Part shown: piece after piece, positions 373 through 10,170 of the stretch
How the letters are laid out: the number at the start of each line of letters is the position of its first letter
Numbering within the stretch: the stretch's first letter is position 1
NCBI GenBank assembly: GCA_016935955.1
Contig: JAFGPY010000061.1
Span: 1-10,170, forward strand
Direction: 5' to 3'
Source of the DNA: Planctomycetota bacterium
GTDB taxonomy: Bacteria; Planctomycetota; Phycisphaerae; FEN-1346; JAACEH01
Length of the DNA: 10,170 bases
The notes under the pieces: model-generated
Databases searched by the model: none
Told to the model about the DNA's origin: nothing
The model's input: only the letters and a program-made list of their open reading frames with translations
Position numbers and translations under genes: made by a program

Positions 373-1800
373 CTACTGTGCATTGTCGGCGTCGAGGCCG
401 AACTGGCGGACCTTATTCCTGAGGGTGTTACGATGCAGGCCCAGACGTGCAGCCGCGGCCGACTGGTTGCCGTTACATTCCTGGAGCACTCTTTGGAGCA
501 GGGTCCGCTCCAGGGGCTCCATGGCGGCTTGGTACATGTTACGGTTGTCGGTGCAGGCCAGCGACAGATACCGCTCGAGGGCCTTCTCGAGGTCGCTCGC
601 GGCGCGTGCAGCCGATTGCGCGTCGGGCCGGCGAAGCGATTCCGGCAGATGCCCCGGCAGGATAGGACCGTTGCCCGACATCAGGGCGGCATGCTCGATG
701 GCGTTACGCAGTTCGCGGACGTTGCCGGGCCAGAGGTAATTGGTCAACACCTCGGCCGTCTCCGCACTGACCAGCGGCGGCGCCTCGCCGGGCGGAGTCA
801 ATTGGCCCAGGAAGTGGCGGGCCAGCGGCAGGATGTCCTCGCGCCGCTGCGAGAGGGGCGGCAAGGTGATGCGGATGACGGCCAGCCGATAGAACAGGTC
901 CTCGCGGAACTGCCCGACTTCGATGGCCTGGGTCAGGTCGCGGTTCGTGGCCGCAATGATGCGCACGTCGAGTTCCTTCGACTGCACCGAGCCCAGCCGC
1001 TCGATGGTGTGCGAGTCGAGGAACCGCAGCAGCTTGACCTGCACGGCCAGCGGCAGGTCGCCGATCTCGTCGAGCATTAGCGTGCCGCCGTCGGCTGACT
1101 CGAAGCGTCCGGGCTTGTCGGCGTCGGCGCCGCTGAAGGCCCCGCGGACATAGCCGAACAGTTCGCTCTCGACGAGGCTTTCGGGCAGGGCGCCGCAGTT
1201 GACCGCCACGAACGGCTTGTCGCAGCGCGGGCTGTGGTTGTGAATGGCCCGGGCCGCCATCTCCTTGCCAGTTCCCGTGTCGCCGAGAATGAGGACCGTG
1301 GAGTCGGCCAAGGCTGCGCGGCCGATCCGCTTGTAGACCTCCTGCATGGGGGCCGACGCGCCGACAAGTTGCGGCCGGTCGCAGGCCGTCGTCTCGTCGC
1401 TCGCCGCCGCGGGGCCGCGCGCTATGGCCGCACGTTGGGCCAGCGCCTGACCGACGAGGTCGGCCGCATGGTCCAGGTCGAGCGGTTTGACCAGGTAGTC
1501 AAAGGCCTTGTTGCGGATGGCACGCGTGACGGTCTCCAGCGATCCGTAGGCCGTGATGACGATGATCATCGACTGGCTGTCCTGCTCGCGCAGCCGTTCG
1601 AGCACGTCCAGTCCGCTCATGTCGCCGAGGCGGACATCCAGGAAGACCACGTCGGGACGTACCTCACCGTAACGGGCCAGCCCTTCGGCCCCGGTGGCCG
1701 CAACGGTCACGGCGAAGCCGCGGCTCTCGAAGTAGCGGCGGAAGGCGAAGCAGATCGATTCCTCATCGTCAATCACGAGAATCCGTTTGGGATCGCTCAT
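373..1800 (-). CDS. Sigma-54-dependent response regulator (NtrC family)
   Basis: This 475-residue protein has the full three-domain NtrC layout. The receiver (about 6-120) has acidic residues D11/D12, phospho-acceptor D55, T83 and K105. The AAA+ domain (about 143-375) has Walker A GDTGTGKE (173-180), Walker B LMLDEIGD (D244/E245), an ATNRDL sensor and the WPGNVREL motif. A Fis-type helix-turn-helix occupies about 430-469. On phosphorylation by its kinase it should oligomerise, hydrolyse ATP and open sigma-54 RNA polymerase promoters. The sigma-54 contact loop, usually GAFTGA, reads GAFSGA (220-225), a conservative change. The ATG (1800-1798) overlaps the kinase stop as ATGA, with GGAG seven bases upstream inside the kinase gene, so translation is probably coupled. 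The stop is TAG at 375-373. The family is certain; the target genes are unknown. The divergent operon is a natural candidate, though no clear -24/-12 promoter was found there. Confidence 0.95.
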   Translation of the reverse strand: MSDPKRILVIDDEESICFAFRRYFESRGFAVTVAATGAEGLARYGEVRPDVVFLDVRLGDMSGLDVLERLREQDSQSMIIVITAYGSLETVTRAIRNKAFDYLVKPLDLDHAADLVGQALAQRAAIARGPAAASDETTACDRPQLVGASAPMQEVYKRIGRAALADSTVLILGDTGTGKEMAARAIHNHSPRCDKPFVAVNCGALPESLVESELFGYVRGAFSGADADKPGRFESADGGTLMLDEIGDLPLAVQVKLLRFLDSHTIERLGSVQSKELDVRIIAATNRDLTQAIEVGQFREDLFYRLAVIRITLPPLSQRREDILPLARHFLGQLTPPGEAPPLVSAETAEVLTNYLWPGNVRELRNAIEHAALMSGNGPILPGHLPESLRRPDAQSAARAASDLEKALERYLSLACTDNRNMYQAAMEPLERTLLQRVLQECNGNQSAAAARLGLHRNTLRNKVRQFGLDADNAQ

Positions 1801-3248
1801 TCACGTGCTCCAGGCAAGACTAACCAGAACGTGCTGCCGCGGTCGGACGACTCGTAGCCGATCCGGCCTCCGTGCTGCTGGATGATCGTGCGGCAGACGT
1901 GGAGTCCGAGTCCCGTGCCCCCGCGCTTGCCGGTGACGAATGGCTCGAAGATGTCCACGCCCTCTGGCACGCGGACGCCGCCGCCCGTGTCGGTTACGGC
2001 CAGCCGCACGCCGTCCTCGCAACCCTCGACGGTCAGGCCCAGTGTGCCGCCGGTCGGCATGGCGTCGATCGCGTTGAGGGCCAGGTTCAGAATCACTTGC
2101 CGCACCTTGGCGGCGTCGGCCGCAGCCGCTAAGGCGGCGCGGTCGTAGCGACGCTCGACGGTGATCGATGCGTGGCGGCAGCGGCCGTTCAGCAGAGATA
2201 CGACCGAGTCGGCCAGTTCGTCAAGGCGTATTGCCGGCGGGGCGTGCATAGTGCTCGGCGGCGCGTCGTCGCGGACGGCCAGGTCCAGAAGTTCCTTCAG
2301 GTAGGCCTCCATGCGATCGATCTCGCGACGGATGATGTCGAGGCTTTCGTCCTGGAGGTTGTGGCGGGCCAGCTCGTCGGCCAGCACGCGGGCGTTCATC
2401 TTGATGCCGCTGAGCGGATTGCGAAGCTCGTGGGCCAGGGAGGCCGACATCTGGCCGAGCGTGGCCATGCGGGCCGAGCGAGCCAGGCGGCTGCGGGCCT
2501 CGGCCAGTTGGGCCATCAAGCGGTCGTACGACTCAGTCAGCCGCCCGATCTCGCGCGGCCCCCGGGACGCCGTCGGGCCGCCGCCGGATGACGGCGAACC
2601 GGAGGAGGACGACAACTCGGAGGCCAGCAGGGAGTCGAGTTCCATCTCCTCGGCGGCGCGGCTGAGACGGTCCATGCGTGCGGCCAGTTGCCGCAAGGGC
2701 CGCGTGATCGAGTGCGACCACCAGACCGACAGCACGGTGGCCAGGGCCACGGCGGCAACGGTCAGCAGGGCGATCGTCCGGGCGGCGCGGGCCTTGGCCG
2801 ACGTGATACGCTGGACGGGCACCAGCAGGCAGAGCCGCGTGGCTTCTCCGCCGGCGAGGTTTCCGGTTGGCGGGAGGGTGGCCACGGCCATGCGGTAGCT
2901 CTTGCCGGCAAGGACGACGTGTTGGGGCAACGGGCTGTGGGCGAACTGCGACAGCAGCTCGTCGCGCTCCGCGGCGGCAAGACTGCCGGCCGTAATCTCG
3001 CGGCGGTCCGCCGGGCCTGCGGCCGCCTCGTCGCCGAGCATCAGGGCCACCTTCTTGAGCAGATCGTCGGTCAGCGGCCACTTGTTCTCGCTGATCTGGG
3101 TGGCCACGTCGACGACGGCTTCGTCCACGAGCTTGCGTTCGATCTCACGCCCGGCGACCTCGATGCCCAGCCAGCCGACGACCAGTCCCAGGCCCGCCAC
3201 GAGCAGGTTCGTTGCCATCAGCATTCTTGTGCGAATCGACCACCGCAT
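1797..3248 (-). CDS. Membrane sensor histidine kinase (NtrB/ZraS-like), partner of the regulator
   Basis: This 483-residue inner-membrane kinase has a short basic N-terminus, TM1 (about 12-30), an extracytoplasmic sensing region (about 31-155), TM2 (about 158-176), HAMP (about 178-250), a dimerisation domain with phospho-accepting H273 in LAHELRNPL, and a catalytic domain. The catalytic motifs are N392 in LNAIDA, D420 in DTGGGV, the F box FEPF (434-437) and GGTGLGL (443-449). All residues for autophosphorylation are present. I chose the ATG at 3248: TM1 follows at once and GAGGG lies 8 bases upstream. An in-frame GTG at 3359 would add 37 residues of non-conserved appearance. A Ser/Gly-rich segment (about 211-230) enlarges the HAMP connector. 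The sensing region shows no domain I can name, so the signal is unknown. It overlaps the regulator gene by 4 bases. Confidence 0.93.
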   Translation of the reverse strand: MRWSIRTRMLMATNLLVAGLGLVVGWLGIEVAGREIERKLVDEAVVDVATQISENKWPLTDDLLKKVALMLGDEAAAGPADRREITAGSLAAAERDELLSQFAHSPLPQHVVLAGKSYRMAVATLPPTGNLAGGEATRLCLLVPVQRITSAKARAARTIALLTVAAVALATVLSVWWSHSITRPLRQLAARMDRLSRAAEEMELDSLLASELSSSSGSPSSGGGPTASRGPREIGRLTESYDRLMAQLAEARSRLARSARMATLGQMSASLAHELRNPLSGIKMNARVLADELARHNLQDESLDIIRREIDRMEAYLKELLDLAVRDDAPPSTMHAPPAIRLDELADSVVSLLNGRCRHASITVERRYDRAALAAAADAAKVRQVILNLALNAIDAMPTGGTLGLTVEGCEDGVRLAVTDTGGGVRVPEGVDIFEPFVTGKRGGTGLGLHVCRTIIQQHGGRIGYESSDRGSTFWLVLPGARE

Positions 3249-3256
3249 GCAGACAG

Positions 3257-3261
3257 CCCTC
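3257..3261 (-). promoter_or_regulatory. Ribosome-binding site deciding the kinase start
   Basis: GAGGG on the minus strand lies 8 bases before the ATG at 3248-3246. Together with the transmembrane helix beginning about 11 residues later, it favours this start over the upstream GTG at 3359-3357. Confidence 0.55.
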
Positions 3262-3409
3262 GTCCGGACAGAGCAACGCCAACCGGTAAGAGTCTCCCGA
3301 AAAGCGGCCAACAAGGCCACAAAAAAATCGTTGCGACCGTTTGCCGGGTCGGGCTGCACCGGCGTCTAAAGGTATGCAGCCGCTGTGGGAGGCGGTTTTG
3401 TCTTGCGTT

Positions 3410-3448: not shown

Positions 3449-3553
3449 GGGTGGTGTCATCTCGTGCGATTCAGCGTCGGCCGAGTCGTTGTCGGCTGTT
3501 TCTGGCCGTGCCGTGATCGCGCGCATCCCTGTGACGTCCCGGGCGCACGGCCC

Positions 3554-3560
3554 AAGGGGG
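3554..3560 (+). promoter_or_regulatory. Ribosome-binding site deciding the first operon gene's start
   Basis: AAGGGGG lies 5 bases before the ATG at 3566-3568. It supports that start over the in-frame GTG at 3464, whose 34 extra residues look non-coding. Confidence 0.6.
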
Positions 3561-3565
3561 CAATC

Positions 3566-5269
3566 ATGGAAGAGGCTTTCCGGCGGAGACTGCACCAGGC
3601 CCGGATGCGGCACGATCTAGGTCGACTGCTCAGCCAACTGGCCGACGCCTTCTTGGCGGCTGGCGCGGCGGTGCTGGCGGCCGTGGTGATTGGCAGAGCC
3701 ACAAGCGTGGAGTTGTTGACGCGGCCGGTCATCGCCACGGCTGCAGGGCTGCTCGTGGCGGTGGTCGGCGTTCGCTGGTACCTCACGCGGCCGAGCCTGA
3801 TGCGCGTGGCCCTGATGATCGACGAGCGGCTGGCCCTGCACGAGCGGTTCAGCACGACCCTGGCCCTGGTCGGGGCCGAGGGGCCCTTCGTTGCAGCCGT
3901 TCGCCACGAGGCCTGTGCACGGGCCGCATCGGTGGACCCCGCCAGATCGTTCCCCATCAAGCTGACGCGCCGTTGGGTACACACGACGTGCTGCTGGGCG
4001 GCTGCGGCCGCGGCCTTCTGGTTCATGCCGGCCTTCGACCTGCTGGGCTATCGCGCCGACGCCGAGCAGAAAGCAGCCGAACTGATACGTCTGGAAGATG
4101 CCAGGACCGAGATCAAGACGGCGACCACGAAGGTCGAGAAGGTGACCTCGGGGCTGAAGATTCCCGAGGTGGCCGGCGATCTGCAGAAGCTCGGCGAAAT
4201 GCAGGAAGGCCTGAAGCCTTCGGAGTTCCGCCGCCAGGCCATTCGGCAACTGACCGACATCAGCGACAAGCTCAAGAAGATCAACGACGGCGAGAAGGGC
4301 GAGACGCAACGCACCCTGAAGGAGATGATGAAGCAACTCCGCTCCGGGCAGCAGGGCTTCGCTGACGATCTGGCCAAGGCCCTGCAGAAGGGCGACTTCT
4401 CCAAGGCGGCCGAACTGGCCAAGGAACTCCAGAAGAAGCTGGCCAACGGCAACCTGTCGGAAGCCGAGCGAAAGGCGCTCGCCGAGAAGCTGAAGGACTT
4501 GGCTGAGCAGCTTGAGAAGCTGGCCGCCAATCAGGACGAACTCGAGAAGGCTCTCAAGGAGGCCGGTCTCGACAAGAAGCTGGCCGGTCTCAGCGAGAAG
4601 GACCTGCTGAAGAAGCTCAAGGAAGCGGGCCTGACCGAGGAGCAGATCAAGAAGCTCATGGAGAAGGCCAAGGCCTGCAACAACGCCGGCAAGCTCTGCA
4701 AGTCGCTGGGCAAGGCATGCAGCGGATGCTGTCCGGGAATGGGCAGTTCGTCCCTGTCGCCCGAGGGGCTTGCGGCCCTGGCCGAAGAGTTGAACGACCT
4801 GGATGCTCTGGCGGCCGAGATGGCCGGGCTTGAAGCGGCCCTGAACGAGATCGAGGCCAATATCGCTTGTTTGGGGAAGGGCCAGTGCAACGGCAGTGGC
4901 CAGGGGCTCTGCATGGGACAGGGGAAGGGGCCCTGGGCGCCCGGCGAGTGCGACAAGTTCGGCCGAGGCAGCGGCGGGCCGGGCCATGGCGGCGGGCCCG
5001 TCGATACGGCCGAGGGCGGGCAGGTGAATACGCAGGGCACGCGGGTGCAGAACGTGGACAAGAGCGGGCCGGTCATCGGCACGTGGCGGGCGCGGGTCGA
5101 GCAGGTTCGCGGCGAGGCCTCCAAGGAAGCCGCCTCCACCGTCCAGGCGGCCAAGGATTCCGCGGCCGAGGCGATCAGCGAGAACCGCATTCCGGCGCGA
5201 TACCAGACGTCGGTCAAGCAGTACTTCGACAACCTGCAGGGCACTGGAGAAGACAAGGACCATGAGTGA
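3566..5269 (+). CDS. DUF4175-like membrane protein with a long coiled coil and Cys/Gly-rich segment
   Basis: This 567-residue protein starts at the ATG with a good Shine-Dalgarno. The basic N-terminus is followed by TM1 (about 25-43), TM2 (about 54-73), a loop with an IDERLALHERFSTTLAL stretch (85-101), and TM3 (about 139-158). Positive charges before TM1, after TM2 and before TM3 put the large C-terminal part outside the cytoplasm. Residues about 165-370 are a Lys/Glu/Leu/Ala coiled coil, with LKEAGL repeated at 330-335 and 351-356. Residues 371-462 hold nine cysteines in a Gly-rich setting. A tail ending with IPARYQTSVKQYFDNL resembles the closing motif of large planctomycete proteins that neighbour MoxR/BatA-type genes. 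The DUF4175 link is from memory of that N-terminal pattern and is only moderately sure; no enzymatic motif is seen. The stop overlaps the next gene by 8 bases. It may be a scaffold for the envelope proteins encoded downstream, which is inference. Confidence 0.8.
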   Translation: MEEAFRRRLHQARMRHDLGRLLSQLADAFLAAGAAVLAAVVIGRATSVELLTRPVIATAAGLLVAVVGVRWYLTRPSLMRVALMIDERLALHERFSTTLALVGAEGPFVAAVRHEACARAASVDPARSFPIKLTRRWVHTTCCWAAAAAAFWFMPAFDLLGYRADAEQKAAELIRLEDARTEIKTATTKVEKVTSGLKIPEVAGDLQKLGEMQEGLKPSEFRRQAIRQLTDISDKLKKINDGEKGETQRTLKEMMKQLRSGQQGFADDLAKALQKGDFSKAAELAKELQKKLANGNLSEAERKALAEKLKDLAEQLEKLAANQDELEKALKEAGLDKKLAGLSEKDLLKKLKEAGLTEEQIKKLMEKAKACNNAGKLCKSLGKACSGCCPGMGSSSLSPEGLAALAEELNDLDALAAEMAGLEAALNEIEANIACLGKGQCNGSGQGLCMGQGKGPWAPGECDKFGRGSGGPGHGGGPVDTAEGGQVNTQGTRVQNVDKSGPVIGTWRARVEQVRGEASKEAASTVQAAKDSAAEAISENRIPARYQTSVKQYFDNLQGTGEDKDHE

Positions 5270-6335
5270 GCACCACGAAGCCGGCCGACGCGCCGAGCGT
5301 CACGCTTGGACGGTCGTTCTGTCGTCATTGGCCGCAGTGCTTGTGGCGGGCCTGACGGTGCTGGCCGTCGGCTGCCGCAAGGAGGCCGATCCCGCGGGCG
5401 AGGAGAACGTGGTTGTGCTGTATTGCTCGGCCGATCAGGAGGTCTCCGAACCGATCGTCGCCGAGTTCCAACGCCGAACGGGCATCAAGGTCCAGGCTCG
5501 CTATGACACCGAGGCCGCCAAGACGGTCGGCCTGGTGCAGCGGCTGCGGGCCGAGGCTGGTCGCCCGGTGGCCGATGTCTTCTGGTCGAACGAGGTCTTC
5601 CACACCATTCGCCTGGCCCGCGAGGGGCTGTTGCAGCCGTATGATTTCGCGGGCAAGGCTGCATGGCCGCCGCAATTTGTCGGCGAGAAGGGGCTGTGGC
5701 ACGGCTTCGCGCCGCGGGCTCGCGTCGTGGTGTACAACACAAGCCGCGTCGGCGAGGACGAGGCGCCGCAGCGCATCGAGGACCTGCTGGAAGCGAAGTG
5801 GAAGGGACGCATGGTCATGGCCGAACCGCAGTTTGGAACCACGGGCGGTCACGTGGCCAGTTGGTTCGTTCTCTATGGGCCCGAGCGGGCGAAGGAGATG
5901 CTTCGGACGCTCAAGGCCAACGAGGTCCGCCTCGTGGCCGGCAACAGCACGGTGGTGCGGATGGTTGCCCAGGGTCAGGCCGACGTCGGGCTGACCGACA
6001 CCGACGACGTCTATTCCGGGCAGCGCAACGGTTGGCCCGTGGCGATGAAGTTCCTGCGTCACGGCGATGGCGGGCCCTTGGCCATTCCGAACTCGGTGGC
6101 CCTGATCGCCGGCGCGCCTCACGAGGCGGCGGCCCGTCGCCTGGTGGAGTACCTGCTCAGCGAGGACGTCGAGGCCGCACTGGCCGCCAGTGATGCCCAC
6201 AACACGCCGGTGCACCCATCCGTGGCCGCTCGATTCCCGCAGTACGCGATTGCCGATCCCCTGAACGTGAACTATGGAGACGTGGCGGAGGCCGTTCCCG
6301 ATGCCATTGCCGCCGCCGGCGAAATCTTTGAATGA
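5262..6335 (+). CDS. Solute-binding lipoprotein of an AfuA/FbpA-like ABC importer
   Basis: This 357-residue periplasmic-type binding protein has a lipoprotein signal: basic n-region (R9-R13), hydrophobic core (about 16-36) and lipobox A-V-G-C38, so the mature protein is probably lipid-anchored from Cys38. The mature part starts with VVLYCSADQE (51-60) and continues with FQRRTGIKV, VADVFWSNE and VVVYNTSR (155-162), all typical of ferric-iron binding proteins (COG1840). Where iron binders usually carry a Tyr-Tyr pair, this one has LTDTDDVYSG (244-253), with a single Tyr. The ligand may therefore not be ferric iron or may be held differently. It overlaps the preceding gene by 8 bases (5262-5269) and the permease gene by 4 (ATGA at 6332-6335), so the two transport parts are co-translated. 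AAGGA lies two bases before the ATG, unusually close; GGAGA lies 11 bases before it. Confidence 0.9.
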   Translation: MSEHHEAGRRAERHAWTVVLSSLAAVLVAGLTVLAVGCRKEADPAGEENVVVLYCSADQEVSEPIVAEFQRRTGIKVQARYDTEAAKTVGLVQRLRAEAGRPVADVFWSNEVFHTIRLAREGLLQPYDFAGKAAWPPQFVGEKGLWHGFAPRARVVVYNTSRVGEDEAPQRIEDLLEAKWKGRMVMAEPQFGTTGGHVASWFVLYGPERAKEMLRTLKANEVRLVAGNSTVVRMVAQGQADVGLTDTDDVYSGQRNGWPVAMKFLRHGDGGPLAIPNSVALIAGAPHEAAARRLVEYLLSEDVEAALAASDAHNTPVHPSVAARFPQYAIADPLNVNYGDVAEAVPDAIAAAGEIFE

Positions 6336-8812
6336 ACCGTCCGACTCTGGCACACGGCGTCATTGCGATGGTCGGCCTCCTGATCTGGTTGCTGCTGGTG
6401 GCGTCGCCGCTGGTGATCACGGCGGCGTCGACGGCCGGCGACTGGACGGTTGCAGGGCAGGCCTACTCGTCGCACACGCTGCACGGCCTGATGATCCGCA
6501 GCATCGGCCTGGCTGCGGCCGTGGCCCTCGGCGCTGTCGTGCTGGGTTACCTTCCGGGTCGTCTGTTCGCCTCTGCGGCCCGGGGACGGATGTTGTTGTT
6601 CTGGCTGATGCTGGCGCCGCTGCTGTGGCCCAGGTACGTCACGTACTACGTCTGGTCGCTATTGCTGAGCCCGACGACGCCCATCGGCCGCATCATGGCC
6701 GGGCAGCCGATCGAGGTCAACCAGTGGATCGGGGCCGCAGTTGCTTCGGTCGTGCAGGTGCTGTGGTATTGGCCCCTGGCGGCCCTGGTGATTGCCCAGG
6801 GCTGGCGGAACATCGACGATGAACTGCTCGGCGCGGCCCGCATGGACGCCGGCCCGTGGCAGCGGATGTCGCACATTACGTTGCCACTGCTCGGTCGCTC
6901 GCTGGCCATGGCCTTCGCGGTCTGTTTCGTGCTGGTGCTCTGTGAGTACGGGACCTTTCACTTGGCGGGGGTACGAACCTACGGCACCGAGCTGGCCGTC
7001 ATCTACGAGGCCACCGGGTCGAGCGAAGCCGTCGCGCGGGCGTCGTTGCCGCTCGTCGGGATCGCCCTGGTTCTGGTGATCGCTCTGGGTCGCGGGATTC
7101 GGCTGCTTGCGGCCTCGCAGGAGACGCCGCTCGCTCCCGCGACCGCCTCGTGTGGTCACTGGGTGATGGTGGTTGTGTTGCTGGGCCTGTCGTTGCTTGC
7201 GCCGCTGGGACTTCTTCTTATGAGCGTTCGGGACTTCGCCCCCTTCATGCAGTTCTGGAGCCTTCAACGGGACGGGCTCGCCAACGCCCTGTCCGCCGCC
7301 GCACTGGCCGCTGTGCTGGCGCTGGCCATGGCCGGGGCCGCCGTCATCCTGGAGCATTCCGGGCGCTGGGCGTGGACGGTTTCGCGGCTGATGCAGGTCA
7401 CGTTGCTCGTGGCGATGTTCGTTCCGGGATCGCTTGTCGGGGTGGTCCTGCTGCGGGCCGCGCCGCACACGCCGGGGATGTCCGGGCTGCTGGACCGGTG
7501 GCCCGCCGTGGCCCTGGGGCAGGCTGTCCGTTTTGCGGGATTGGCGCTGCTGGTGTTGATGACAGCCCGTCAGGCGATTGACCGGCGATGCCAGGAGATG
7601 GCCCGGGTGGACGGGGCCGGAACGCTGGCCCTGTGGCGCTACATCCATTGGCCGCTGCTCTGGCCGACGCTGCTGGCGGCGCTGGTGCTCGTGGCCGTCT
7701 TCAGCCTGACCGAATTGTCCGCGACGATGCTGCTGTTGCCGCCGGGAGTGCCGCACTTCACCCAGCGGCTGCTCAACCAGATGCACTATGCCCGTGACGA
7801 GCACGTCATCGCGTCGTGCCTGCTGCTGACGACCGTCTTCCTGGGCATCGGCGGATTGACGGCTGCACTCGTTGCCGTGAAGGGACGGCGAGCTGCGATG
7901 GTGGCCCTGGCTGCTGCAGTCGGGGCGTGTTGTCTTGGCGGTTGCGATTCGGCGCCGTCGCCTTGGGGCTCGCCGGAGTTTTGCGGCTCCCTGGGCAGCA
8001 GCGGGTCCGGTGACGGAGAGTTCCTCTACCCGCGGGCCATCGACCTGGACGGCGACGGCAACCTGTTCGTCGTCGACCGGACCGGCCGCATTCAGCACCT
8101 TGCCCGGGACGGAACGGCCCTGACGGTCTTTCGCATGCCGGACATCGAAGCCGGGTACCCCACGGGTCTGAGCGTCGGTCCGGACGGGCTGCTCTACGTG
8201 GCCGACACGCACTACCATCGCGTGATGATCTTCCAGGCGGACGGGCAGCTTATGCGCCAGTTCGGCGAGTTCGGCGAGGGGGACGGGCAGTTCATCTACC
8301 CGACGGACGTTGCCTTCGCGCCGGACGGGCGTGTGTTCGTCAGCGAGTATGGCGGCAACGACCGCGTCAGCATCTACTCGGCCGAGGGGCAATTCCTGGG
8401 CAGCTTCGGCCGACTGGGCAGCGGTCGCGAGGAGTTCTCGCGTCCATCGGCGCTCTGTGTCGACGCCGAGCGCGGGTTGCTCTATGTGGCCGACGCCTGC
8501 AACCATCGCATCGTCAGTTACACGCTCGACGGCAAACTGGTGGCGATCATCGGCTCGGTCGGCCAGGACCTGGGGCAGTTCCGCTATCCCTACGACCTGG
8601 CCCTGATGGACGACGGCTCGCTGCTGATCTGCGAATACGGCAACAACCGCATTCAGCGGATCGCCCCGGACGGCAAGTCGCTGGGCTGCTACGGCACGGC
8701 AGGCCGCCAGATGGGGCAACTCGCGTACCCGTGGGGCCTGGCCGTGGACCGCAAGTCGAGAGTCTACGTCGTGGACGCCGGCAACAACCGTGTCCAGGTG
8801 TGGCAGCTATGA
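6332..8812 (+). CDS. FbpB-like ABC permease fused in frame to an NHL-repeat beta-propeller
   Basis: This is one uninterrupted 826-codon frame. Residues 1-515 form a double binding-protein-dependent permease with about 12 helices. It has two EAA loops for ATPase docking: E164-L-L-G-A-A-R-M-D-A-G ending at ITLP, and E422-M-A-R-V-D-G-A-G ending at IHWP. Each half therefore looks functional. The last permease helix (about 490-515) runs straight into KGRR (517-520), a hydrophobic stretch and the lipobox LGGC538, like a lipoprotein signal. Residues 545-826 are six NHL-type repeats with recurrent YP, DG, LYVAD and NNRV/NHRI motifs, enough for one six-bladed propeller. FbpB-type permeases normally end near residue 515, so the propeller is an addition. 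Helix count and positive charges put the propeller outside the cytoplasm. The gene overlaps both neighbours by ATGA and lacks a strong Shine-Dalgarno, suggesting coupled translation. No ATPase gene is present within the window. A sequencing error that merged two genes is possible but would need loss of an in-frame stop. Confidence 0.88.
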   Translation: MNRPTLAHGVIAMVGLLIWLLLVASPLVITAASTAGDWTVAGQAYSSHTLHGLMIRSIGLAAAVALGAVVLGYLPGRLFASAARGRMLLFWLMLAPLLWPRYVTYYVWSLLLSPTTPIGRIMAGQPIEVNQWIGAAVASVVQVLWYWPLAALVIAQGWRNIDDELLGAARMDAGPWQRMSHITLPLLGRSLAMAFAVCFVLVLCEYGTFHLAGVRTYGTELAVIYEATGSSEAVARASLPLVGIALVLVIALGRGIRLLAASQETPLAPATASCGHWVMVVVLLGLSLLAPLGLLLMSVRDFAPFMQFWSLQRDGLANALSAAALAAVLALAMAGAAVILEHSGRWAWTVSRLMQVTLLVAMFVPGSLVGVVLLRAAPHTPGMSGLLDRWPAVALGQAVRFAGLALLVLMTARQAIDRRCQEMARVDGAGTLALWRYIHWPLLWPTLLAALVLVAVFSLTELSATMLLLPPGVPHFTQRLLNQMHYARDEHVIASCLLLTTVFLGIGGLTAALVAVKGRRAAMVALAAAVGACCLGGCDSAPSPWGSPEFCGSLGSSGSGDGEFLYPRAIDLDGDGNLFVVDRTGRIQHLARDGTALTVFRMPDIEAGYPTGLSVGPDGLLYVADTHYHRVMIFQADGQLMRQFGEFGEGDGQFIYPTDVAFAPDGRVFVSEYGGNDRVSIYSAEGQFLGSFGRLGSGREEFSRPSALCVDAERGLLYVADACNHRIVSYTLDGKLVAIIGSVGQDLGQFRYPYDLALMDDGSLLICEYGNNRIQRIAPDGKSLGCYGTAGRQMGQLAYPWGLAVDRKSRVYVVDAGNNRVQVWQL
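7877..7945 (+). other. Internal lipoprotein-like signal peptide and possible internal start in the permease-propeller gene
   Basis: From the in-frame GTG at 7877 the frame reads V-K-G-R-R, then AAMVALAAAVGACC, then LGGC with Cys codon 7943-7945. This is a textbook lipoprotein signal layout of basic n-region, hydrophobic core and lipobox, 23 residues to the Cys. An in-frame ATG also occurs at 7898, with AGGGA 12 bases before it. Either codon could start a separate propeller lipoprotein. Alternatively the segment is a thirteenth helix in a one-piece protein, perhaps cut by signal peptidase II. Confidence 0.55.
7964..8809 (+). repeat. Six NHL repeats forming a predicted six-bladed propeller
   Basis: Protein repeats start near residues 563, 608, 654, 702, 750 and 797 of the fusion, at periods of about 45-48 residues. 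Each has an aromatic-Pro entry (YP, or RP in repeat 4), and all but two have a hydrophobic-V-A/V-D or SEY/CEY strand and an N-N/H-R turn. The last repeat stops after its VQVWQL strand, while residues about 548-562 resemble the missing closing strand and loop. The ring can thus be closed by pairing the N- and C-terminal ends, as is usual in propellers. NHL domains bind proteins, sugars or other ligands; no catalytic motif is visible. Confidence 0.8.
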
Positions 8813-10170
8813 TCGCCATGTACTCGATCCATTTCGATCGCCCGCTGTGGCTGCTTGCGGCCCTGACGGCGGTGCCGGTCATCTGGCTGGCATGGCGGCA
8901 CTTGGCCGCCCTGGGTCGCGTGCGCCGTATTGCCGCCGCAGTCTGTCGCGTGCTGGTGATTCTGTTGCTTGCAGCCCTGCTGGCCCACCCGTCGCTCCGC
9001 AAGCAGCACGATCAGGTGACCGTGCTCGTTGGCATCGATCGCAGCCGCTCGGTGCCCGAGGCCTTGCGGCAATCGGCGCTGCAGTATCTGCGCGACGCCC
9101 TGGCCGAGAAACCGTCGGGCGACCAGGTGGCCGTCATCGATCTGGCCGAGCGGCCGATGATCGAGAAACTGCCGGGCAAGGACACCGGGGTCGACGAACG
9201 CGTGCCCAGCCTGATGGGGCACCACACGAATCTGGCGGCGGCCGTTCAACTGGCGCTGGCCATCGCTCCGTCCGACACGGCCAATCGCATCCTGCTGGTC
9301 AGCGACGGCAACCAGACGCTCGGCGACGTGCTGGAGACGGCCCGGGTGGCCGCGACGAACCATGTGCCGATCGACGTACTGGCCCTGCAGTACAACTATG
9401 ATCGCGAGGTCATTCTCAAACGCGTCGTGACGCCGCAGACCGCCCGCACCGGGCAGACCATTTCCGTCCGTTTCGTCCTGCAGAGCACGGCGGAATCCAG
9501 GGGGCGGCTGAACCTGACGCTCAACAACCGCGTGGTGGACCTCGATCCCGACAGCGACTCGTTCGGTGCACCGGTCACGCTGCGGCCCGGAACGAACGTC
9601 AAGACCGTGCAGTTGCCTATCGGCGACAAGGGACTCTACGAGTTCGAGGCCCGCTTCGATCCGGACGACGGGCAGCAGGACACGCTCGAACAGAATAACA
9701 CGGCCGGCAGCGCGACGTTCGTCGCCGGACCTGGGCACATCCTCGTGGTCGACCAGGGTGACGGTGCGGGCCGGCAGATCGCCGAGGCCCTGACCGAGGC
9801 CGGCGTCAACGTGCAGTCGGCCGCCGTCGGGCAGTTTCCCTATCAGCTGACGGAGATGCTCGACATCGACGGCATCGTGCTGGCCAACATGCCGTGCCAC
9901 CAGTTCACGCTGGCCCAGCAGGAGATGATCTGCCAGTACGTCAAGGAACTGGGCGGTGGTCTGGTGATGGTCGGCGGCCCGGATGCCTTCGGGGCGGGGG
10001 GCTGGATCGGCTCGCCGGTAGCCGAGATTCTGCCCGTGGACGTCGACCCGATGCAGCGCAAGCAGATGCCCAAGGGGACTCTGGCCCTGATCATGCACAG
10101 CTGCGAGATGCCCGACGGCAACTACTGGGGCCAGCAGGTGGCCATCGCCGCCGTGAAGGCCCTCAGTTCG
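8809..10170 (+). CDS. BatA-like von Willebrand factor A protein with amidotransferase-like domain (3' end beyond window)
   Basis: 454 codons are visible with no stop; the gene continues past the right edge. It starts with an ATG overlapping the permease-propeller stop (ATGA at 8809-8812), with AGGTG eight bases upstream. Two N-terminal helices (about 12-28 and 42-60) resemble the BatA-type anchor. A von Willebrand A domain (about 70-195) has a complete metal-ion site: D77-R-S79-R-S81, T140 and D166-G. A beta-rich, Ig-like segment (about 200-305) follows. Then comes a class-I glutamine-amidotransferase-like domain (about 309-415) with GGGLVMVGGPDAFG (382-395), lacking a recognisable catalytic Cys elbow, so it is probably non-enzymatic. 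The visible end, LALIMHSCEMPDGN (425-438), looks like the opening strand of a second von Willebrand domain. Such proteins occur in MoxR/BatA-type envelope operons. Its partner is unknown; co-translation with the permease-propeller suggests a shared complex. Confidence 0.88.
   Translation, partial: MIAMYSIHFDRPLWLLAALTAVPVIWLAWRHLAALGRVRRIAAAVCRVLVILLLAALLAHPSLRKQHDQVTVLVGIDRSRSVPEALRQSALQYLRDALAEKPSGDQVAVIDLAERPMIEKLPGKDTGVDERVPSLMGHHTNLAAAVQLALAIAPSDTANRILLVSDGNQTLGDVLETARVAATNHVPIDVLALQYNYDREVILKRVVTPQTARTGQTISVRFVLQSTAESRGRLNLTLNNRVVDLDPDSDSFGAPVTLRPGTNVKTVQLPIGDKGLYEFEARFDPDDGQQDTLEQNNTAGSATFVAGPGHILVVDQGDGAGRQIAEALTEAGVNVQSAAVGQFPYQLTEMLDIDGIVLANMPCHQFTLAQQEMICQYVKELGGGLVMVGGPDAFGAGGWIGSPVAEILPVDVDPMQRKQMPKGTLALIMHSCEMPDGNYWGQQVAIAAVKALSS

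Follow-up and report, generated by a model that had tools for sequence, protein, structure and literature searches.

The window, i.e., the whole stretch of 10,170 nucleotides of planctomycete DNA that was analysed, contains an open reading frame (6332–8812, 826 amino acids) that runs without a stop from an FbpB-like permease through a basic loop and a 13th hydrophobic helix to a lipobox (Cys538) and an NHL propeller. In the window, the start of this fused gene forms an ATGA overlap with the end of the gene for a substrate-binding protein (SBP), and its stop overlaps the start of the VWA/GATase1-like gene by ATGA as well. The order of the operon is helical protein without a Pfam family, SBP, fused gene (permease::NHL), VWA/GATase1-like protein, MoxR, DUF58 and BatA (for coordinates see Table 1). 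The true start of the helical protein may lie downstream of 3464. The best NCBIfam matches of the SBP were SBPs of the 2-aminoethylphosphonate type, all below their cut-offs. The SBP bears its own N-terminal lipobox (Cys38), so that the fused gene has another lipoprotein gene immediately before it. Divergent to the operon, a sigma-54-type response regulator and a histidine kinase are encoded on the minus strand (373–3359), and they may control it.

Table 1. Position of the operon genes and of the parts of the fused protein in the window.
Feature	Position	Strand	Basis or remark
Helical protein, first gene of the operon	3464..5269	+	no Pfam family at E ≤ 0.001
Substrate-binding protein (SBP)	5262..6335	+	SBP_bac_1/6/8/11
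FbpB-type permease part, residues 1–517	6332..7882	+	
Basic loop KGRR, residues 517–520, presumed cytoplasmic	7880..7891	+	sequence
13th hydrophobic segment, residues 521–537, putative internal lipoprotein signal peptide	7892..7942	+	predicted helix 522–535
Lipobox L-G-G-C with Cys538, putative cut before Cys538	7934..7945	+	Cys conservation
Six-bladed NHL propeller, residues 545–826	7964..8809	+	stop 8810–8812
VWA/GATase1-like protein, runs off the window	8809..10170	+	VWA_2 above cut-off, GATase1_like below

The permease part showed the fold of a type I ABC importer (FbpB type), and the structural matches of the propeller included 1rwl (PknD). PknD is a membrane-anchored protein whose NHL propeller lies outside. 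In the predicted structure of the window protein, model confidence reached its minimum at residues 536–543. Judged from the predicted models, helix 13 can span or nearly span the membrane; in that of the fused relative L078 the corresponding helix comprises residues 561–580. The sequence of this segment varies among relatives, its position is constant, and the fused loci carry on average 3.1 K+R against 0.05 D+E at positions –36 to –13 relative to the Cys. The topology, as drawn from the predicted fold and from knowledge of the family, would be compatible with a working fusion, in agreement with the preliminary description of this DNA.

Two further features of the chain were observed. Residue 496 (window 7817–7819), at the start of helix 12, is a second lipobox-like Cys (IASC), which is kept in 119 of the 120 listed close relatives versus 4 of 34 distant ones. 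Three relatives (P0006, P0008 and P0019) contain low-complexity repetitive inserts (EAGAAPRPT-like) between propeller blades, which look like a DNA repeat translated into the propeller.

Fused, split and permease-less relatives

A full-length search at E ≤ 1e-10 matched 264 proteins, and among the 120 matches listed, the window included, permease, junction and propeller were found in one chain in every case. The stop-free run of the permease into a lipoprotein signal and a propeller, which had been described from the window alone, is the same in the 119 other listed relatives. Searching 397 genomes of one class at E ≤ 1e-20 gave 225 matches, many of them to the propeller only and many to fused relatives with 30–40% identity; of 392 genomes drawn from the phylum, 9 matched at the different cut-off of E ≤ 1e-90, so that the two draws are not comparable.

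Loci were then compared in a non-random sample. Loci L001–L034 came from a scan of public genomes with patterns of the window's fused protein, every one of the 34 from planctomycete records; L035–L079 were the best matches of genome searches, and L080–L139 were 60 regions picked by hand from the listing of class-draw matches. Identical propellers, propeller matches below 230 bits, loci with tandem propellers (L047, L051, L053, L054 and L057) and loci lacking a propeller (e.g., L049, L050 and L076) were dropped, leaving 101 distinct loci. The window was counted among the fused loci as well as among the 120 listed proteins. By locus number, loci up to L077 are called near and those from L078 far.

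The preliminary description had asked whether homologues are fused, adjacent or split elsewhere, and the sample was mixed: of the 101 loci, 75 were fused and 11 split, with permease and propeller encoded by two genes of one strand; in the other 15 the propeller had no detected permease beside it. The outcome that had been named as speaking against a fusion, two genes in every relative, did not occur, 75 of 101 loci being fused. Missed permeases or cut flanks may be among the 15, because L105, which was scored as fused by its open frame and tblastn span, escaped the permease profile. In all 34 scan loci the propeller was in frame with the adjoining permease piece, L029 and L030 having breaks inside the permease and L025 and L028 ending at a contig edge. 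Judged from these sequences, the permease-lipoprotein fusion with its internal lipobox is real and conserved.

Seven of the 11 split loci (L080–L086) had one frame with a single stop at the junction (five TGA, one TAA, one TAG), while in the other four (L121, L126, L138 and L139) the frames of permease and propeller differed. The proposal that a stop between adjacent genes had been lost is supported: in seven loci the in-frame stop lies right at the junction, which makes the loss (or the gain) of a stop the right picture. In a propeller tree, fused and split states required at least five changes; the fused L078 clustered with L080/L081, which have one stop (support 92), and the fused L101 with the split L086/L139 (support 100). 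This tree was a quick search with support below 80 on 38 of 98 inner branches, and it does not settle the direction of change. The fusion is a switchable state in which fused and split forms interchange. Two more split pairs, P0246/P0183 and P0248/P0202, are likely from the matching lengths of their contigs. JGI automatic names label some relatives ‘Fe3+ permease / YncE propeller’.

The seven junction stops could also be taken to mean that two ordinary genes had been joined by a missed stop or a frameshift during sequencing. The same join, however, recurs in many independent assemblies and in 75 of the 101 distinct loci. We consider such an error next to impossible, and with 119 other listed relatives and 75/101 loci fused it was rejected as the origin of the fusion in the family.

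The internal lipobox and processing of the fused chain

Cys538 was aligned in all 120 listed fused proteins (of 264 matches) and in all 75 fused loci, 41/41 near and 34/34 far. At positions 521–536, the most frequent residue was present in just 32 to 75 of the 120 listed proteins. Within columns 1–554 of the alignment of the 75 fused loci, in which some rows are incomplete and counts toward the N-terminus therefore lower, full identity was found only at His485 and Cys538. Conservation of Cys538 merely through common descent was rejected, as this residue is unchanged from near to far loci while other cysteines drop: cysteines 198, 496, 709 and 767 fell from 36, 38, 27 and 39 of 41 near loci to 1, 4, 1 and 6 of 34 far ones, and Cys723 from 39/41 to 22/34.

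A lenient lipobox rule, which has no chance control of its own, matched at the same place in 75/75 fused, 11/11 split and 15/15 permease-less loci. The strict pattern was found in 98 of the 120 listed proteins, the window itself failing, and by locus in 57/75 fused, 9/11 split and 11/15 permease-less forms. Fused and free forms were similar in hydropathy ahead of the Cys and in the length of the uncharged run before it, whose median was 16 (fused), 14 (split) and 15 residues (permease-less). The lipobox Cys follows a basic and a hydrophobic stretch, as in lipoproteins; this signal is N-terminal in the split forms and lies behind the whole permease in the fused ones. As the lipobox sits at the same place in the split and permease-less forms, its role there can be taken to be that of a lipoprotein signal. 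In the fused chain, too, the conserved lipobox most likely acts. Lsp, the lipoprotein signal peptidase, was found in 9/10 related genomes and Lgt in 10/10.

We propose, with a probability of about 0.6, that the fused gene represents two neighbouring operon genes working as a small polyprotein, which is lipidated and cut at Cys538. One chain would be translated, beginning with the FbpB-type permease, whose helix 12 would end inside and be followed by the short basic loop. The 13th hydrophobic helix would then serve as an internal lipoprotein signal peptide and place the NHL propeller on the outer face. Lgt would lipidate Cys538 and Lsp would cut just before it. Out of this would come, in equal amounts, a permease extended by one short helix and a separate lipid-anchored propeller. 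What the sequences show is the fused frame, its conservation, the kept lipobox and its place in the natural split and permease-less forms; topology, lipidation, cleavage at Cys538 and a benefit of the fusion are inferred.

A chain that stays uncut, in which helix 13 anchors the propeller next to the channel while Cys538 is at most lipidated or otherwise kept, corresponds to the earlier idea of a transport channel with its own propeller attached. It would agree with the single open frame, with a helix 13 predicted to span or nearly span the membrane, and with the occurrence of PknD, an outside NHL propeller on a membrane protein, among the structural matches (1rwl). However, it leaves unexplained the lipobox Cys in 120/120 listed proteins and 75/75 loci, and also why the free lipoproteins have the same lipobox. 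A tether needs no lipobox, yet Cys538 is kept throughout, in every aligned fused protein as in the free lipoproteins; separation into two proteins after synthesis is therefore the likelier course, and we regard a permanent tether as unlikely. Less likely still is that ribosomes begin at an internal codon such as Met523, besides or instead of making the fused chain, and that the lipobox serves this product. The window has Met523, and within the tested span 38 of the 75 fused loci have an in-frame ATG and 67 have at least one of the codons ATG, GTG and TTG. The same count on control spans from the permease nevertheless reached 45% for ATG (327/731) and 85% for any start, so that the fused loci show no excess, and a start together with a Shine-Dalgarno sequence was found in 5/75 fused loci versus 50/731 control spans. 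Among the free forms, an ATG preceded the signal peptide in 8/11 split and 6/15 permease-less loci and any start codon in 11/11 split loci; a start with Shine-Dalgarno was seen in just 3/11 and 1/15, respectively. The start-codon test is a weak one, because the free forms, which need a start of their own, hardly stand out in it.

If the cut by Lsp occurs, a lipoprotein signal can lie elsewhere than at the N-terminus, and annotation restricted to N-termini would overlook lipoproteins that form the tail of a membrane protein. The fused L078 and the one-stop L080/L081 are natural matched pairs for the handling of a lipobox behind 12 helices by Lgt and Lsp.

Among open-licence papers, judged by titles and abstract starts, none was recognised that describes a permease-NHL fusion or a polytopic protein with a lipobox inside its chain. 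FbcH of Bradyrhizobium, a cytochrome b/c1 precursor, combines a polytopic and an exported protein in one chain, which are parted at an internal signal sequence, and is presumed to be cleaved by signal peptidase I. The site in permease::NHL is in contrast a lipobox, so that the enzyme would be Lsp, acting after lipidation. OpuA is an ABC importer with a fused substrate-binding domain. Substrate-binding domains fused to an ABC importer are also described for GlnPQ (PMC8025302). In both the GlnPQ type and permease::NHL the permease chain carries an extracytoplasmic domain; in permease::NHL, however, this domain is a propeller preceded by a lipobox and not an SBP fold, and the SBP is encoded by a separate gene. 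In Sco2149, a dual Sec-Tat membrane protein, the last of several helices resembles a signal, and in reporter fusions the reporter was released by way of a signal peptidase I site introduced behind helix 3 (PMC5449189). Unlike in the present case, that cut site is engineered and lacks a lipobox, and the export route is Tat.

The permease and the MoxR/VWA operon, in which no ATPase gene was found

An ABC ATPase was found inside the operon at none of the 101 loci; it was seen at two of them, both times outside the operon, on the opposite strand at L020 and in a second importer upstream at L022. This second importer (L022:335–2916) is an ordinary SBP-permease-ATPase set just upstream of the operon. 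Five 19-kb regions contained no ABC ATPase either. In comparison with the FbpB permease of ferric importers (FbpBC, Thermus thermophilus, 9j4r), which lacks the extra helix and the lipoprotein domain found here, the present operon is without an ATPase gene and its far group has degenerate EAA loops.

The EAA2 loop was kept in 37/41 near fused permeases versus 1/33 far ones; of its far counterparts, in which the alignment is less sure, 21/33 had G428 and 24/33 P441. PF00528 matched 42/50 scanned near permeases versus 0/34 far fused ones, and 3/10 scanned split permeases (L126 left out). His485 of the LLNxMHY loop was present in all 34 far fused loci, and the model of L078, a less divergent far member, folds like FbpB. 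The far-branch sequences give hints that the permease is uncoupled from an ABC ATPase there, and their degenerate coupling loops suggest that the permease fold serves a different purpose.

Around the 75 fused loci, a homologue of the helical protein lay upstream in 56 and one of the VWA/GATase1-like protein downstream in 67; helical protein, SBP and VWA protein were all present at 54, many loci being too short for more. Of the 15 permease-less loci, eight had a VWA neighbour, the others being cut or without any query gene. L142 (G348) has the operon with neither SBP nor permease; the free propeller encoded there is 62% identical to that of the window and falls within the near fused clade of the propeller tree. 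On this 5.84-Mb contig the stretch L142:7753–16058 (the place of L079 and L120) encodes the helical protein, a free NHL lipoprotein, VWA/GATase, MoxR, DUF58 and BatA. Because the propeller is present there without a permease, it seems to belong to the MoxR/VWA operon and not to the transporter, and SBP plus permease look like a module that can be absent. The operon joins this importer-like module to a MoxR/VWA/BatA envelope system.

In MoxR-vWA-beta-propeller ternary systems, the vWA protein itself bears a C-terminal propeller (Kaur et al., PMC7159879). These systems and the present operon are alike in having MoxR, vWA and propeller in one neighbourhood, and they differ in that the propeller here is a separate lipoprotein. 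The MoxR protein of L002 scored 47.1 bits against a bpMoxR cut-off of 27. The ternary system was considered for this match and rejected: the vWA protein of L002, the one representative, consisted of VWA and GATase1_like with no propeller family.

A wider reading, which we offer tentatively and hold to be more doubtful than probable, is that the family represents a bacterial polyprotein of an ABC-type permease and a lipoprotein that is matured by Lsp, with an internal lipobox as old as the fusion, and that in one large branch the permease, with neither ATPase coupling nor an ABC ATPase, would be a membrane receptor or scaffold of the MoxR/VWA envelope system.

A further permease was observed at L140:8145–9802 (the gene of L076). 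It is 55–57% identical to that of the window and has altered EAA and MHY motifs; beside it lies only a short SBP match, there is no propeller within 19 kb, and P0241 has the same residues. The L140 permease is perhaps a decaying paralogue.
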